A stretch of 64,000 bases of DNA from Spirosoma panaciterrae DSM 21099 (lineage in GTDB: Bacteria; Bacteroidota; Bacteroidia; Cytophagales; Spirosomataceae): NCBI RefSeq assembly GCF_000374025.1, contig NZ_KB893217.1, positions 222,141 to 286,140 on the forward strand, in the 5' to 3' direction. This document shows, piece by piece, positions 57,102 to 64,000 of this stretch (its first letter is position 1; every line of letters starts with the position of its first letter). The position numbers and the translations under genes were made by a program. The notes beneath the pieces are model-generated. The model was not told where the DNA came from and did no database searches. It saw only the letters and a program-made list of their open reading frames with translations.

Positions 57102-57605
57102 TTACGGATTTGGAATTGCTTTTACTTCAATTTTGGCACCACTGGCCGTTGAGAATCCATACGATTTGATCAGGGCTAACCAGCTCTGATCGCTTGGATC
57201 GGTAGAGTTACCGGCAATTTGGCGGCTGAAGTTCAGGTTTGTTTCGGTCAGGTTATCAATAGCCCAGGTATCGACCGATCCCGAAGTACTGGTAATAATA
57301 AATGCCGTTTCATCGGCATTGAACTTCCAGGTTCCCGTCGTTGTCGTACCGGGCAGAATTACCTGCGAAAATGACTTATCAGCTTTGAAGTTCATATACG
57401 ACGACGAAAAATCAACCAGGTTACCAGCACCGCCCCCTTTTGTATAGGCTGTTACGGGTATGGTTCCGAGGGTAACCGACGCTGTCTGGAACTGCCAGTT
57501 ACGTACGATCAGATCCGTTTTCGTTTTCGCGGCCGGTGTATCATCTTTTTTACATCCCCAAAGGAGCGTTACGCTTAAGCAAAGTAGAGCAAAAAGCTTT
57601 TTCAT
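57102..57605 (-). CDS. Lipocalin-like lipoprotein of unknown function
   Basis: 167 residues. The lipoprotein signal is LFALLCLSVTLLWGC, with the cysteine at residue 18, so it is lipid-anchored in the envelope. The mature part starts with DLIVRNWQFQTASVTLG, the W of a lipocalin-like first strand, and continues with YMNFKADKSFSQV, TGTWKFNADETAFIIT and a strand-rich C-terminus. This fits the small Bacteroidota lipocalin-like family with one eight-stranded barrel. Ligand and role are unknown. It is a single-gene unit converging on acs. Confidence 0.85.
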   Translation of the reverse strand: MKKLFALLCLSVTLLWGCKKDDTPAAKTKTDLIVRNWQFQTASVTLGTIPVTAYTKGGGAGNLVDFSSSYMNFKADKSFSQVILPGTTTTGTWKFNADETAFIITSTSGSVDTWAIDNLTETNLNFSRQIAGNSTDPSDQSWLALIKSYGFSTASGAKIEVKAIPNP

Positions 57606-57781: not shown

Positions 57782-60700
57782 CTATGCCGTCGCTAACTCC
57801 CTGGGCTTGTGTGTAGTATTCTGGCGATAAAATAGTCGGTAGATAATTGGGAAGATCAACAGCGTCAGAACAGTTGCGGTTATCAGCCCACCGATCACAA
57901 CAATAGCCAGAGGTTTCTGCGTTTCGGAACCGATTCCGGTCGAAATGGCCGCTGGGAGCAGGCCAATGGCCGCCATCAGAGCCGTCATCACCACCGGGCG
58001 AATGCGCGTCTGTACCCCTTCTCGTATCGCTGTATCGAGTGGCATTTTCTGCAGCCGATTGTTGTTGAATACCGAAATCAGGATAACCCCATTCTGGACA
58101 CAGATACCAAACAGGGCAATGAAGCCCACCCCTGCCGATATGCCGAAGTTCATGCCTGTTACGTGCAGGGCCAGAATCCCACCAATGAGGGCAAAGGGAA
58201 CGTTGAGCAACACCAGTCCGGCATCTTTCGCATTGCCAAACAGAATAAACAAAATGACAAAAATAGCCGCCAGACTCAACGGCACTACCTGCCCCAGTCG
58301 CTTGGTAGCCCGAACCTGATTCTCGAACTCGCCCGTCCAGTTGATCGAATACCCTTTAGGCAGACTTTTTAGAGCCGCATTCACCCGGCGTTGTGCATCG
58401 GCAATGGTACTGCCCAGATCGCGCTCACGGACCGAGAATTTGACCCCAATAAATCGTTTGTTGTTATCCCGATACACAAAAGCCGGGCCGGTAACTTCGC
58501 GGATGGTTGCAATTTCGCGTAATGGGATTTTGTTGCCTCGCAAGGTGGGCACCATAAGCCGCATAATATCATCTTCGGTTTTCCGATAGCTTTCGCCATA
58601 CCGCACCCGAATATCGAATTTACGTTCTCCTTCATACAAAATCGACGCGGTTTTACCGCCAATCGCCATTTCGATCACCGCCTGGGCATCGGCTGTCGAA
58701 ACACCGTATAAAGCCATTTTCTGGTCGTGAAATAATACGCTGATTTCGGGCTGACCAATGTTGCGCAGAATCCCGACATCTTTTACACCGGGCACGTCGT
58801 GGATAGCCGCCAGAACGGTGTTCGCCAATTTGTTCAGTTCATTCAGATCATCGCCAAAGATTTTTACGGCATTGCTGGCATTCATCCCGGCCACAGCTTC
58901 GGCTACGTTGTCGATGATCGGCTGCGAATAGTTGTAGTTGATGCCCTGAAACTGTTTCAGTTTCGCATCCATTTCCTCAATCAGTTCATCGGTCGTAATT
59001 TTCCGCGTCCACTCGTCTATCGGCTTCAGGTTTACCTGCATCTGCACGTAGTAAAAGCCGGAAGGATCGGTACCATCGTTGGAACGTCCCGTCTGCGACA
59101 AAACCCCATTCACTTCCGGAAACTCCATCAGTTTCTTCCGCAGTATTCGCACCATGCCTACCGTTTGGTTGAGCGAACTACTCATGGGCAATTTGGCCTC
59201 AACCCACAACGCCCCTTCGTTTAGTGTCGGCAGGAATTCGGTTCCGAGAAAGGTGGCCGAGAAAAAGGTAGCGATCATAAACGCGATAGCCGCCAGCAGA
59301 CTTAACCGACGATTGGCGTAGCATTTGGAGAAGCCCGCCATCACAATCCGGTTAAAGAAATTTACCAGCGGGTTGTTTTTCTCCCGCACGTTTTTCTTCA
59401 GCAGGATGGAACAAAGGAGCGGGACCAGCGTCAGGGTAAACAACAGAGCGCCCAACAACGCGAAACCAAGCGTCCAGGCCAGCGGAGAAAACATCTTGCC
59501 TTCTACTTTCTGGAACGAGAAAATGGGCAACAAAGCGGTGATAATGATGAGCTTGGAGAAGAAAACAGCCTTCCCTAACTCGCCCCCCGTTTTCTTGATA
59601 AGTCCTAGTTTACTCATCCGATTGAACCGGGCCATACCCGTCTGATGAGCCAGGTGATCGAGCGCCACAAAAATGCCTTCGACCATGACCACCGCTCCGT
59701 CGATGATGATCCCAAAATCGACCGCTCCCATCGATAGCAAATTGGCCGACATACCCCGCATTCGCAAACACATAAACGCGAAGAGCAAGGCCAGCGGGAT
59801 AATGATCGACACAATCACCGTAGTTCGCCAGTCGGCCATAAACAGGAACACAATCACCGTAACCAGAATAATCCCTTCCGTAAGGTTGTGCAAAACGGTT
59901 TTCGTACAAAAACTAATCAGGTTATCGCGGTCGTAGAACGTAACCATCTTCACATCCGACGGCAGGATGCGGGTATTCAGTTCGTCGATTTTGGCCTTGA
60001 CCCGCGCCAGCACCTCGCTCGGATTTTCGTTTTTCCGCATCACCACAATGCCTTCGACCACATCATCATCGTCATTCAATCCAACCTGACCTACGCGCGG
60101 GAAATTCGATTCGGCCACTTCGGCCACGTTTTTCACCAGTACCGGATTACCATCCAGATCTTCTACGATCAGGTTTTCGATATCCTGAATAGACGTCAGC
60201 AAACCGATTCCCCGCACCACATACGCCTGTCCGTTTCGCTCGATCACATCCCCCCCCACATTAATATTACTGCGCGTAACGGCCTGATACACTTCCAGTG
60301 GGGTAATATCGTACTTAGCCAGCTGCGTGGGGTTGACCCGGATTTCGTAGCTCTTATCCCGTCCGCCAAAAGCCACTACATCGGCCACGCCCGATACTGA
60401 ACGGAGCTGCCGGTCAATGACCCAGTTGTGGAGCGTGAGTAGTTCACGACTGTCGCGGGTAGGCGATTTAAGGGTAAACCGGAAAATCTCGCCCGTTGGT
60501 CCGTAAGGGGGCTGGACTTCAGGTTCGACGCCATCGGGAAGCGATACCGTACGGAGTTGGTTGTTGACCTGCTGCCGGGCAAAAAAGTCTTCCACATCAT
60601 CCTCAAAAATGATCTTGATGATGCTCAGCCCAAACATGGTGATGGAGCGCACATTGGTTTTACGTTGTACCGAGTTCATCGATACTTCGATAGGCACCGT

Positions 60701-60904
60701 TACAAACCGTTCGATTTCCTCCGCAGAGCGCCCTTTCCACTCCGTCACGACGATAATCTGGGTATTCGTAACATCCGGGAAAGCCTCAATGGGTGTGTTC
60801 AGATAGCTGGCGATACCCGCCACGACCAGCCCAAAGGTCATGAAAAAGATAAAGAAGCGGTTCTTGAGTGAAAAACCGACAATATTGCGGATGAATTTGT
60901 TCAT
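57782..60904 (-). CDS. czcA: Heavy-metal efflux RND pump (CzcA-like)
   Basis: 1040 residues, the inner-membrane pump of a tripartite efflux system. It opens with FIRNIVGFSLKNRFFIFFMT and YLNTPIEAFPDVTNTQIIVV. The transmembrane-helix-4 motif is VDFGIIIDGAVVMVEG, with Asp396, Asp402 and Glu409; this acidic set marks the Zn/Co/Cd/Ni branch, while Cu/Ag pumps such as CusA lack it. The large periplasmic loops and a second helix set (GVGFIALFGICVQNGVILIS) are intact. The ATG at 60904 is preferred to a TTG at 60910. It is the last gene of a TolC-adaptor-pump operon and uses proton influx to expel metal. Confidence 0.94.
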   Translation of the reverse strand: MNKFIRNIVGFSLKNRFFIFFMTFGLVVAGIASYLNTPIEAFPDVTNTQIIVVTEWKGRSAEEIERFVTVPIEVSMNSVQRKTNVRSITMFGLSIIKIIFEDDVEDFFARQQVNNQLRTVSLPDGVEPEVQPPYGPTGEIFRFTLKSPTRDSRELLTLHNWVIDRQLRSVSGVADVVAFGGRDKSYEIRVNPTQLAKYDITPLEVYQAVTRSNINVGGDVIERNGQAYVVRGIGLLTSIQDIENLIVEDLDGNPVLVKNVAEVAESNFPRVGQVGLNDDDDVVEGIVVMRKNENPSEVLARVKAKIDELNTRILPSDVKMVTFYDRDNLISFCTKTVLHNLTEGIILVTVIVFLFMADWRTTVIVSIIIPLALLFAFMCLRMRGMSANLLSMGAVDFGIIIDGAVVMVEGIFVALDHLAHQTGMARFNRMSKLGLIKKTGGELGKAVFFSKLIIITALLPIFSFQKVEGKMFSPLAWTLGFALLGALLFTLTLVPLLCSILLKKNVREKNNPLVNFFNRIVMAGFSKCYANRRLSLLAAIAFMIATFFSATFLGTEFLPTLNEGALWVEAKLPMSSSLNQTVGMVRILRKKLMEFPEVNGVLSQTGRSNDGTDPSGFYYVQMQVNLKPIDEWTRKITTDELIEEMDAKLKQFQGINYNYSQPIIDNVAEAVAGMNASNAVKIFGDDLNELNKLANTVLAAIHDVPGVKDVGILRNIGQPEISVLFHDQKMALYGVSTADAQAVIEMAIGGKTASILYEGERKFDIRVRYGESYRKTEDDIMRLMVPTLRGNKIPLREIATIREVTGPAFVYRDNNKRFIGVKFSVRERDLGSTIADAQRRVNAALKSLPKGYSINWTGEFENQVRATKRLGQVVPLSLAAIFVILFILFGNAKDAGLVLLNVPFALIGGILALHVTGMNFGISAGVGFIALFGICVQNGVILISVFNNNRLQKMPLDTAIREGVQTRIRPVVMTALMAAIGLLPAAISTGIGSETQKPLAIVVIGGLITATVLTLLIFPIIYRLFYRQNTTHKPRELATA

Positions 60905-60988
60905 GAGCAAAGGGGAAAGGGCATAGGGCGAAGGGGAAAAGCAGCAGCGAAACAGCCCCTTTGCCCCATACCCTCTGCTCCATGCGTT

Positions 60989-62077
60989 TTAATCATTTAT
61001 CGCGTCGTAGACCAGAAGCTGATTTTGAGAAATGACCCGTTCGCCGGGTTTCAGGCCGGTTTTGATATAGGCGATATCCCCAATGGTCTTCAGCACATTC
61101 ACTTCACGGGTTTCGATGTCGGAGCGACTCTTGAACACCATCACAAAGTGTTTCGACTGATCGAAAATGACCGATCCTGCCGGTACAGTAGCCAGCTGCC
61201 CGCCATCCTCGTAGCGTAAGGTAACCGTTGCGTGCATCTCGGGGCGAAGTTTCAGCCCGGTATTATTCAGCCGAATCCGAACCGTCATGGCTTTGGTACC
61301 TGGGTCCAGTACGGTGTAAATTTTATCGACCTGGCCTTTAAACAATTGATCGGGGTAGCTCAGGGTCTGGATGGAAGCGTCCATACCAATCCGTACCCGA
61401 CCAATATCACTTTCATTGACGTTGGCCAGCACCCATACTTCAGATATTTGCCCAATCGTGAACAGATTATCGGCATTATCGGAGCGAAGCTGCATGCCCC
61501 GGTTCACATTCTTTTCGATCACATAGCCATCCAGGGGCGCTTTTACGGTATAGATCGACGTTTTGCCAAGCCCATAAATATGAGCCACTTCTTTTACCCG
61601 ATTGGCCTCTGCCTGTGCTTTCTCCACCTCTTTCTGAGCTGCCACCACTTCACGCTGTGAGACCAGTTTGGTTTCGAACATATCCTGCGCTACCCGCAGA
61701 TTTTTCTCCGCCAGCAGTAAATCCGACTGGGCCTGAATGCTCTGCCGCTCAATATCGGCTACTTCACCTGACCGGATCGATGCCAGGGTCTGTCCCTTAT
61801 GTACATAATCTCCAAGCTCTACCTTCACATCCTCGACATTGCCGCCCACCAGTGGAAACACTTTAATCACCCGGTTTTCATCGGCGACCACCTTCCCAAC
61901 CAGCGTCAGTTCGCTTCGTACAGGCTGCATCACCGTACTATCCAGACGAATCCGGTGCATCATCGTATCCGACAGCATAAAGGCTTTCTGCTCTTCCTGC
62001 GCAGGCTTGGGAGCGCAACCTACCAAAGCTGCTAACCCGCTAATCAGCAGGAGACTAGGACAAACAAAGCGATTCAT
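60989..62077 (-). CDS. RND efflux periplasmic adaptor (membrane fusion protein)
   Basis: 362 residues. A lipoprotein signal (LLLISGLAALVGC, lipobox cysteine at 21) anchors it in the membrane. The barrel-sandwich hybrid half (KVFPLVGGNVEDVKVELGDY) is followed by a helical hairpin with coiled-coil character (about 105-160, IERQSIQAQSDLLLAEKNLR) and the second half-motif TVKAPLDGYVIEKNVNRGMQ. Then come a beta-barrel domain and a membrane-proximal domain (PAGSVIFDQSKHFVMV). It links the pump to the outer-membrane channel. No His- or Met-rich metal-binding extension is present. The gene lies between the TolC-like and pump genes. Confidence 0.93.
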   Translation of the reverse strand: MNRFVCPSLLLISGLAALVGCAPKPAQEEQKAFMLSDTMMHRIRLDSTVMQPVRSELTLVGKVVADENRVIKVFPLVGGNVEDVKVELGDYVHKGQTLASIRSGEVADIERQSIQAQSDLLLAEKNLRVAQDMFETKLVSQREVVAAQKEVEKAQAEANRVKEVAHIYGLGKTSIYTVKAPLDGYVIEKNVNRGMQLRSDNADNLFTIGQISEVWVLANVNESDIGRVRIGMDASIQTLSYPDQLFKGQVDKIYTVLDPGTKAMTVRIRLNNTGLKLRPEMHATVTLRYEDGGQLATVPAGSVIFDQSKHFVMVFKSRSDIETREVNVLKTIGDIAYIKTGLKPGERVISQNQLLVYDAIND

Positions 62078-62128: not shown

Positions 62129-63412
62129 TTATCGAAACAAATCTGTTCCGACCAGATAATTCAACTCTTCGTACGCGCTGATTCGGTCGGCCTTCAGCCG
62201 GTTAAGCTGGCGAATACTATCGTTATAGGCTTCAATCAGGTCGACGAATTCAATCAACGACAGGTTACCTTTTTGAAAACTGGTGATCACACCCCGGTTC
62301 AACTCATCAAACTGATTGGTAAACTGCCCTTCAACGGACTGCACGCGACGTTCTACTTCCTGCACTTTCTGCAACGCAGTAGCCACATCGTTACTCACCT
62401 GAACGGCTTTCTGCTGATGCAGTTGTTTCTGATAGCTGATCTGGCTCCGGGCCGCCCGAATGGCCCCCTGATTGCGGTTAAAAACAGGCACATCGGCCGA
62501 AACCGACAACCCGACGTAATTCTGAATGTAACTTCCGGCCTGGTCGTAGGTGCCCCCTACCCGCAGGTCGGGAGTTGCCAGGGCACGTTGCAGGTTATAA
62601 TTCAATTCAGCCTGACGGGTCAATGATTCGGCAGCTTTCAGGTCGGGGCGGTTACGGAGCGCCATTTGCTGAAGAGTATCTTCCGACTGATTGGGCAGGT
62701 GATAACGGGGCAATGTCTCATTAAACACACGTGGCCGGATTGGCTGATCGACGGATAACAGGGTTCTCAGCGCCCGCTGGTCATCGGCCAACTGAAACAC
62801 GATTTCAGTCCGGTCATTGTTGAGTTGAAAAAGAAGGGCTTTCAGCCGCAGCAGTTCACGAAGCGATATATTGTTCCGTTGGTACTGTTGTTCATAGGCC
62901 GATACCGTCGTCTGAAGTGTGGCCATCTGCTGATCAAAACGTGCCAGGGTCTGTTCCTGAAAGTAAATCGAGAAGAACCGGCTTCGGAGGTCGAAACGCA
63001 ACCCACGCAGCAAATCAAGCAATTCAAACTCCGTCAATCGAGCGGCTTCCGATGCCAGCGCAATTCGTTTGTTACGCTTTCCGGCCGTATATAGCAATTG
63101 CTGAATCGAGATAATTTTCTCCCCCTGACGCCCCACATCCAATACCCGACGGGCTTCGTTATTGTAGGCACTAAGCTCAAGGGTTACGTTCGGATTATCG
63201 TATAAACTGGCCTGTAACACCTGCGCCTGGCTGGCATCGATCCGAAAACGTTCGGCCAGCAATAGCAAATTGTTTTTCAAAAACAGGCTATCTGCCTGCC
63301 GAAGACTTATCGTCAGCGAATCCCGACGGGGCTGAGCGGCTGCACTCGTTTGTGCCTGAGTAAATTCCGCAGAAAAAAATACTAAAAAAGAAATAACTGT
63401 CAGTAGCCGCAT
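62129..63412 (-). CDS. TolC-family outer-membrane efflux channel (CzcC-like)
   Basis: 427 residues. A signal peptide (LTVISFLVFFSAEFTQAQ) precedes two TolC/OEP repeats of long helices and short strands. The first contains SLRQADSLFLKNNLLLLAER and NVTLELSAYNNEARRV, the second ALRNRPDLKAAESLTRQAEL and VGLSVSADVPVFNRNQGAIR, a typical OEP stretch. It forms the outer-membrane exit duct for the RND pump. It is the first gene of the operon, and its upstream region holds a phased array of GATTAr hexamers, probably response-regulator sites. Confidence 0.92.
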   Translation of the reverse strand: MRLLTVISFLVFFSAEFTQAQTSAAAQPRRDSLTISLRQADSLFLKNNLLLLAERFRIDASQAQVLQASLYDNPNVTLELSAYNNEARRVLDVGRQGEKIISIQQLLYTAGKRNKRIALASEAARLTEFELLDLLRGLRFDLRSRFFSIYFQEQTLARFDQQMATLQTTVSAYEQQYQRNNISLRELLRLKALLFQLNNDRTEIVFQLADDQRALRTLLSVDQPIRPRVFNETLPRYHLPNQSEDTLQQMALRNRPDLKAAESLTRQAELNYNLQRALATPDLRVGGTYDQAGSYIQNYVGLSVSADVPVFNRNQGAIRAARSQISYQKQLHQQKAVQVSNDVATALQKVQEVERRVQSVEGQFTNQFDELNRGVITSFQKGNLSLIEFVDLIEAYNDSIRQLNRLKADRISAYEELNYLVGTDLFR

Positions 63413-63450
63413 ACATTGCCTGAACTTGGGCTACAAAGGTCTTTAATCCA

Positions 63451-63511
63451 GATTAATATAGGATTAAATAAAGATTAGAGCAGCTTTAAAAAGAGATTAG
63501 AAAAACATTAG
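63451..63511 (-). promoter_or_regulatory. Array of GATTAr hexamers at exact 11-base spacing (probable response-regulator sites)
   Basis: Hexamers start at 63451 (GATTAA), 63462 (GATTAA), 63473 (GATTAG), 63484 (degenerate, CTTTAA), 63495 (GATTAG) and 63506 (CATTAG), always 11 bases apart. On the operon strand they read as yTAATC. Direct repeats on one helical face are typical of OmpR/PhoB-type regulators. The array begins 38 bases upstream of the tolC-like start. The rest of the 325-base gap to 63737 is A+T-rich with no gene. Confidence 0.6.
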
Positions 63512-63737
63512 AACCCAGCCGTATATAGTTATTTATACTTACGAATAGAGCCTTATTCCCTAAGAATATTACCTGAAAATCAAACTATTAAAACAGATAT
63601 AGATTTAAAACATGGGCACACCCGTTTGCCTGGGCAACATTAAAATTAGTTTTAACTAACTTAATCTGTTTGTTTAATACCTTAATCCATAGAATAGGCT
63701 ACCTGTGGCTCGATAGCCTGGCCCGATACAGATCGGA

Positions 63738-64000
63738 TTACAAATGCGGAAGGGAAATGGTAAAGGTACTCCCCTCACCTACTTTACTCTCGACTGCCAA
63801 CGTACCCTGGTGCAGTTCAACTAATTTGGCGCAGATCGACAACCCAATACCAAACCCCTGATAATCAAACGCATTGGTGGCCCGATAAAAAGGCTCGAAG
63901 ATCCGGGTTATCTCCTCCTCCGAAATACCGATTCCGGTATCCCGAACAACTACCCGACAAAAACGGGTATCGGTGCCAATACGGACTTGAGCCGTTTGAT
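63738..64000 (-). CDS. Sensor histidine kinase, C-terminal ATPase part only
   Basis: Read on the reverse strand, the frame is open from the window edge to a TAA at 63740-63738. The visible 86 or so residues are the end of a HATPase domain: a G1 box in VVVRDTGIGISEEE, then ITRIFEPFYRATNAFDYQG, the G2 box GFGIGLSICAKLVELHQGTL and the closing GEGSTFTISLPHL. It lies upstream of the metal-efflux operon in the same direction. A CzcS/CusS-like kinase with an OmpR-type partner gene beyond the window would fit the phased repeats in front of tolC. Confidence 0.9.
   Translation of the reverse strand, partial: QTAQVRIGTDTRFCRVVVRDTGIGISEEEITRIFEPFYRATNAFDYQGFGIGLSICAKLVELHQGTLAVESKVGEGSTFTISLPHL

Follow-up and report, generated by a model that had tools for sequence, protein, structure and literature searches.

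Six tandem YTAA half-sites upstream of a heavy-metal efflux operon in Spirosoma panaciterrae: a likely operator for the adjacent response regulator

Genes and direct repeats at the locus

The stretch analyzed here, called the window, comprises 64,000 nucleotides of Spirosoma panaciterrae DSM 21099. Towards its end lie the genes of a heavy-metal efflux RND system of the CusA/CzcA family, consisting of a pump that scores above the cut-off of its family model together with adaptor and outer-membrane genes. They are preceded by a response regulator (RR) and a histidine kinase (HK) gene, which gives the order RR-HK-array-tolC-cusB-cusA. The genes and repeats are as follows.

57782..60910, minus strand: CusA/CzcA heavy-metal efflux RND pump (TIGR00914, 954.7 bits, cut-off 701.45)
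60989..62077, minus strand: CusB/CzcB-like periplasmic adaptor (HlyD_D23; RND_mfp above its cut-off)
62129..63412, minus strand: TolC/CusC-like outer-membrane efflux protein, operon gene 1 (Pfam OEP)
63451..63511, minus strand: array of six tandem half-sites with an 11-bp period (sequence, shuffles, period control, conservation in related species)
63511-63506, minus strand: half-site 1, promoter-distal end, CTAATG (sequence)
63500-63495, minus strand: half-site 2, CTAATC (sequence)
63489-63484, minus strand: half-site 3, TTAAAG (sequence)
63478-63473, minus strand: half-site 4, CTAATC (sequence)
63467-63462, minus strand: half-site 5, TTAATC (sequence)
63456-63451, minus strand: half-site 6, promoter-proximal end, TTAATC (sequence)
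63738..64000, minus strand: 3' end of the histidine kinase gene (Pfam HAMP/HisKA/HATPase_c), the full gene running to L003:4246, beyond the window
L003:4374-5060 (= window 65233-65919), upstream of the kinase gene: response regulator gene (Pfam Response_reg/Trans_reg_C)

The initial annotation had described a kinase gene ending just upstream of the repeats and had placed the partner regulator beyond the window; both statements proved right, the kinase stop codon lying at 63738 on the strand of the operon. The regulator belongs to the OmpR/PhoB family, and the RR and HK genes lie directly upstream of the array. The best NCBIfam model for the regulator is cztR_silR_copR (TIGR01387), at 241.8 bits and below the cut-off of 279.2, and the nearest one for the kinase is a heavy-metal model (215.3, below the cut-off of 292.55). 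Because both scores fall below the heavy-metal cut-offs, CopR/CusR membership is not established. A small gene with a lipoprotein-like start (MKKLFALLCLSVTLLWGCKK) directly follows the pump gene on the same strand (57102-57605, minus strand) and may be in the operon. The gap between the RR and HK genes (L003:4247-4373) holds purine-rich GGGAGGA-type repeats set against pyrimidine-rich CTCCCT-type ones, by eye a long imperfect inverted repeat.

On the plus strand the repeats read GATTAA at 63451, GATTAA at 63462, GATTAG at 63473, CTTTAA at 63484, GATTAG at 63495 and CATTAG at 63506, as the initial annotation had listed them, and the 11-base phasing is exact across all six hexamers. Since the kinase gene, the tolC-type gene and the gap that holds the array are all on the minus strand, the array is to be read on that strand; we therefore kept the positions and corrected the strand assignment. 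Its unit on the operon strand is YTAAN-N6. With six repeats at 11 bp the array exceeds the definition of a direct-repeat site that we applied (at least two repeats at 10-11 bp), and by reading it consists of direct repeats only, the AgrR-type inverted repeat ATTACA-N4-TGTAAT being absent from it. One further candidate unit, CTTTAA at 63441, lies in the spacer at 10 bp from the sixth unit and overlaps the -7 octamer described below, and was not counted; similar letters occur in L083-L087 and L093, not in most other relatives. Near the HK stop codon, an A+T-rich stretch (63640-63700) contains several TTAAT words out of the 11-bp phase and is possibly a terminator or a second weak site.

The array lies in a gap of 325 bp (66% A+T) between the HK stop at 63738 and the start codon of the tolC-type gene at 63412. 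With the strict hexamer class this gap contains a run of six, and 5000 dinucleotide shuffles gave runs of at most three at any period from 6 to 20; with the TAA/TTA core the run is again six and the shuffles reached five at most (5 of 5000). When both strands of the window were scanned for runs of at least four NTAA at periods 6-20, with one interior miss tolerated, the array was the single run found. Among 40 Markov resamples of the window (both strands, period 11) we obtained one run only, of length 4.

Conservation upstream of tolC relatives and promoter geometry

Relatives of the first operon gene were present in 151 of the 222 genomes of the family (E <= 1e-60). We assembled 61 upstream regions, our own and 60 chosen by hand among the matches listed, from high to low identity; some genomes contribute two copies, and the stretches fetched were usually 4.8 kb long. 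At period 11, TAA runs reached at least four units in 42 of the 61 regions and at least six in 27, and each other period from 5 to 19 gave runs of at least four in none of the 61. The order RR-HK-tolC on one strand was found at 36 of the 61 loci, with the end of the HK gene at most 500 bp from tolC in 33 of them. At most of the remaining loci the RR or the HK gene was not found within the stretch fetched, and in L129 and L132 both run in the opposite direction.

When the 48 regions with the best fit to a six-unit template (33 once rows at least 80% alike are removed) are aligned without gaps, they read TTCTAATnTTTTTCTAAt...cTAA...TcTAAt...tTAAg...gTAAt...GAccTTTG. The aligned units were partly selected for by the fit to the template; GAccTTTG was not, as it lies outside it. 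This octamer resembles the Bacteroidota -7 box TAnnTTTG, which spans -12 to -5 according to the accessible part of PMC9723704, and the corresponding features of the window are predicted as follows.

63442..63451, minus strand: 10-bp spacer from the last 5-mer unit (63456-63452) to the -7 octamer (relatives with the octamer at +10)
63434..63441, minus strand: predicted -7 element GACCTTTG (conserved in aligned relatives; published consensus)
63429, minus strand: predicted +1, 17 nt before the ATG (from the -7 element spanning -12 to -5)

The predicted -7 element differs from the consensus in its first base, and the published position of the box places the +1 near 63429. At least three units were recognized in 53 of the 61 relatives. 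Among these 53, an NANNNYTG octamer lies exactly at +10 after the last unit in 36 (NANNTTTG in 30), and any other offset accounts for at most two relatives; the array thus holds a fixed position relative to the core promoter, whose start is a predicted one. An automatic count of unit places in the 36 gave six in 29, four in 4, and three, seven and eight in one each, the seven and eight units being those of L105 and L095 respectively. By direct reading, six-unit arrays are found in most Spirosoma copies (g1) and in those read in genera g10, g22 and g36, two units being degenerate in g36, and four-unit arrays in those of g5, g8, g28 and g35 and in L130 of g30; L128 of g30 has three units and a fourth at 10 bp. 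The distance from array to octamer is unchanged between the six-unit and four-unit lineages.

By the same rule 17 of the 53 relatives lack NANNNYTG at +10. Five of them (L134, L136-L138, L140) carry another conserved octamer, GAATATCG, at this place, L099 carries GATCTTTA, and the arrays of L088, L090, L112, L113 and L124 are degenerate at their promoter end. The eight regions with fewer than three units by rule are L111, L115, L127, L129, L132, L135, L139 and L141. Two of these, L129 and L132, have TTAAG-N6-TTTAT-N6-TTAAG/T followed 10 bp on by CACATTTG or CACCTTTG, L111, L115 and L135 have two units, and by reading no recognizable array was seen in the upstream regions of L127, L139 and L141.

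The Bacteroidota promoter is unusual in having a -7 element TAnnTTTG and a -33 element that is weak or not found. In the accessible parts of PMC7366714, TTTG is reported near -33 in B. fragilis, and that motif was not identified in F. johnsoniae. From the octamer and the published position of the -7 box, units 5 and 6 of the array cover the -33 region, and no TTTG, the ordinary -33 match, occurs in the array upstream of the octamer. This overlap with the -33 position would also be expected if the bound regulator were a repressor whose occupancy of units 5-6 blocks RNA polymerase. We consider such repression improbable, because a separation of 10 bp between array and -7 box and the absence of TTTG ahead of the octamer fit an activator-dependent promoter, and in E. 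coli, too, the pho boxes stop about 10 bp short of the -10 box.

Recurrence of the array and the regulators beside it

The genome scan suggested in the initial annotation, for at least three GATTAr units at 11-base spacing, returned two places in the S. panaciterrae genome (reversed-pattern control: 1), the array itself and C11:146210, both between HK and TolC genes. The kinase gene at C11 is a paralogue, with a paralogous RR gene further upstream, and at +10 after the array stands TAGCTTTG, which matches the -7 consensus completely; the recognition-helix stretch of the C11 regulator is nearly the same as that of the window regulator. Six sites of the C11 type were fetched (L159-L164), all with a TolC relative of 79-91% identity just downstream.

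The 11-mers of the C11 array are nearly identical to one another, and such arrays could thus begin by duplication. Even so, it is extremely improbable that the window array merely lines up by chance, or is a tandem duplication undergoing decay, in an A+T-rich gap, since this is contradicted by the shuffles, the period controls and the conservation, and the spacers between its six units are all different from each other. The initial annotation had itself raised the concern that similar arrays might turn up at random in A+T-rich gaps; the sets examined contained no runs of four at other periods.

Nineteen proteins of the S. panaciterrae genome have an OmpR-type winged helix. In the 144 kb around their genes (one of the 19 regions being shortened by a contig end) period 11 yielded 12 runs of at least four units, whereas periods 8-10 and 12-15 yielded none. 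As TTAA runs are detected on both strands, the 12 runs correspond by reading to 9 places; these are spread over 7 loci, in each of which the neighbouring regulator has a recognition stretch of the CopR-like type (NVVEVYVNYLRKKID or one similar to it), and several paralogous regulators share nearly the same recognition-helix stretch. Grouped afterwards, arrays lie beside 7 or 8 of the 10 CopR/CusR-like regulators versus none of the 9 other OmpR-type proteins; the comparison of 7/10 with 0/9 gives a Fisher p of 0.003 that is only indicative, as the grouping is post hoc and the counts were typed by hand. The CopR-like class was set by the recognition-helix pattern; C11 was included despite a run of only three units, L189, whose A-rich run lies on the opposite strand, was left out, and L184, which belongs to the class by tree (support 88/90), is among the 9. 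No convincing array was seen near three of the 10 CopR-like regulators, and an array with a -7-type octamer at +10 occurs at only 4 of the 19 RR loci (L003, L004, L186, L193). Within L193, an array CTAAA TTAAG CTAAT CTAAT (G000:C67:91944-91989) lies upstream of the DNA-binding domain of a paralogous regulator, perhaps for autoregulation, and a similar match was seen at G202:C45:92902.

This link to one regulator class also bears on the idea that the repeats are phased A/T tracts that bend DNA intrinsically, as a UP-like or nucleoid-protein element, instead of a sequence-specific operator. Units that are A+T-rich and recur once per helical turn would suit bending, but what is conserved is the YTAA core, its orientation and its distance to the -7 box, and together with the association with a single class of regulators this leaves intrinsic bending very improbable.

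A strict scan for four ATTAR units at 11 bp found 63 places in 52 of the 222 family genomes; it misses the window array because the CTTTAA unit is degenerate. Its reversed-pattern control (22 matches) is contaminated, as RATTA also matches GATTA arrays, so other periods served as the control. Of the 70 loci read around strict-scan arrays, 30 of which had at most 1.5 kb of flank, only 16 showed a relative of HK or TolC close to the array, the queries being only the HK, RR and TolC of the window and C11 systems. In 36 Spirosoma genomes, two units followed by TAnnTTTG within 0-30 bp gave 148 matches versus 89 in the reversed control, so most single two-unit matches are background. The gap between units and octamer peaked at 10 (19 rows, 16 genomes), at 21, which is one unit further (23 rows, 17 genomes), and at 12 (16 rows, 16 genomes), where several recurring sites depart from the 10-bp frame. 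Fixing the gap at 10 left 71 matches (control 39), and the unit period peaked at 11 (17 rows), 22 (11) and 32 (8), all others reaching at most 4. The period-11 rows mostly resemble C11-site orthologues by their letters, and one array may yield several rows; the Spirosoma peaks thus reflect conservation of a few sites and not an independent genome-wide rule. Recurring two-unit sites appear among the rows with gaps of 11-12, for example TTAATNGTTTTTTAATCTGA... with TAnnTTTG 11-12 bp on, and CTAATGNTNTATTAATATTGTGCAAATATAGGTTTG.

Across 395 genomes of the phylum, three units with TAnnTTTG within 0-30 bp were found in 27 (35 rows; reversed control 8), with gaps of 10 in 12 rows, 21 in 9 and 24 in 9, and gap 10 is present in families f1, f4 and f7. 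From the phylum and Spirosoma match lists we read 20 array loci. In 9 of them the array directly follows an HK gene and directly precedes a TolC gene; 6 of these 9 belong to family f4, and the other 3 are Spirosoma sites of the C11 type. L145, in family f7, has RR-HK-array with another gene downstream. A second array class was noted in other families of the class (L155, L156, L158), where TTAAT-N6-TTAAT-N6-TTAAT is followed after 24-25 bp by TATTTTTG and directly precedes two paired genes that are weakly similar to HK and RR genes. SulP-type (Sulfate_transp) genes, too, are preceded by TTAAT arrays, of four units at 11 bp, in L042 (4022-4059, G000:C26) and L052, and arrays similar in sequence to these are found in L051, L054, L059 and L062; no CopR-like regulator was seen beside any of these six.

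Because such arrays stand before SulP genes that no such regulator adjoins, adjacency does not prove a cognate pair. A different OmpR-family regulator, a paralogue or several competing ones, might bind the array, the adjacent RR being one user among them, and the nearly identical recognition-helix stretches of several paralogues would allow for this. We regard this as rather unlikely, given that an RR-HK-tolC set enclosing the array is a common arrangement in the family and is seen again in f4.

Proposed activation and comparison with known systems

From these sequence comparisons we consider it likely that the adjacent OmpR/PhoB-family regulator uses the array as a Pho-box-like tandem operator and would activate the pump promoter from the -33 position. 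The initial annotation had proposed a binding array of the partner regulator at a metal-efflux promoter, and the conserved phase and position, the RR-HK-tolC order and the OmpR/PhoB family of the regulator support it. Preservation in many related species makes it very likely that the array lines up copies of the neighbouring regulator. The kinase would sense a signal, probably excess metal, whereupon the CopR/CusR-like regulator encoded two genes upstream would bind the array and tolC-cusB-cusA would be switched on. The promoter-proximal units lie over the -33 place and stop 10 bp short of the -7 octamer, so that the regulator, once bound, would bring the housekeeping sigma factor to the promoter and take the place of an upstream promoter element. 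Cooperative binding by several dimers, stacked along the DNA, is plausible; further units may add affinity and cooperativity, their number depending on the lineage (mostly six or four) while the promoter-proximal spacing stays constant.

There is perhaps an even chance that this reflects a modular code in Bacteroidota, in which CopR-like regulators would bind (YTAAN-N6) x4 or x6 placed 10 bp before a TAnnTTTG-type box and replacing the -33 element, with activator strength evolving by whole dimer sites (22 bp) off a fixed promoter edge. If true, such a code would set these regulators apart from the proteobacterial AgrR with its inverted-repeat operator, and the regulons of many uncharacterized two-component systems of the phylum could be read from sequence, the array motif serving to assign their targets. 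An operator that varies by whole dimer sites at a fixed distance to the -7 element would also be a clean test system for activation at these promoters, and in the literature searched we found no account of a response regulator meeting a Bacteroidota promoter.

Long arrays at 11 bp are already known, and the suggestion that six units exceed any normal box of this kind is not supported. In the accessible text of PMC7866108, Streptomyces coelicolor PhoP protects 64 nt at pitH2, with four core and two ancillary 11-nt repeats, and the parts of PMC7866108 and PMC4415409 available describe repeats overlapping the -35 region at glpQ1/glpQ2. For E. coli ArcA, the available part of PMC3798270 reports sites of two to five direct repeats whose centres are mostly 11 bp apart, with 92 of 158 sites having three to five, binding that appears cooperative, and occupancy that varies with repeat number and strength. 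An 11-bp repeat in the accessible part of PMC10197871 lies inside a tolC gene and is unrelated to the array. The unit YTAAN, the frame in which it stands to the Bacteroidota -7 box, and the link to CopR-like regulators seem to be undescribed, as we found no publication on any of them in the open-licence literature.

The array thus shares with the PHO box of E. coli PhoB and Streptomyces PhoP, as far as the sources seen describe it, head-to-tail 11-nt direct repeats and a regulator of the OmpR/PhoB family. It differs in its unit, YTAAN versus CTGTCAT/GTTCACC, in its place at the -7 promoter of a Bacteroidota metal-efflux operon, and in a regulator closest to CopR/CusR models and not to PhoB. 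Multiple direct repeats, mainly at 11 bp, are likewise a feature of ArcA sites, but the ArcA sites covered by the source text differ from one another in how many repeats they have, how these are spaced and where they lie, whereas the arrays described here keep a fixed frame to the -7 box and have a unit count that follows the lineage. The likeness to Cupriavidus AgrR, an OmpR-family regulator of the CusR/CzcR type acting in metal resistance, lies in the nearest named model of the window regulator, the heavy-metal TIGR01387, matched below its cut-off. According to the accessible part of PMC7380067, AgrR recognizes ATTACA-N4-TGTAAT, an inverted repeat to which some operators add direct half-sites; the array upstream of the Spirosoma pump operon is instead built of direct repeats throughout.
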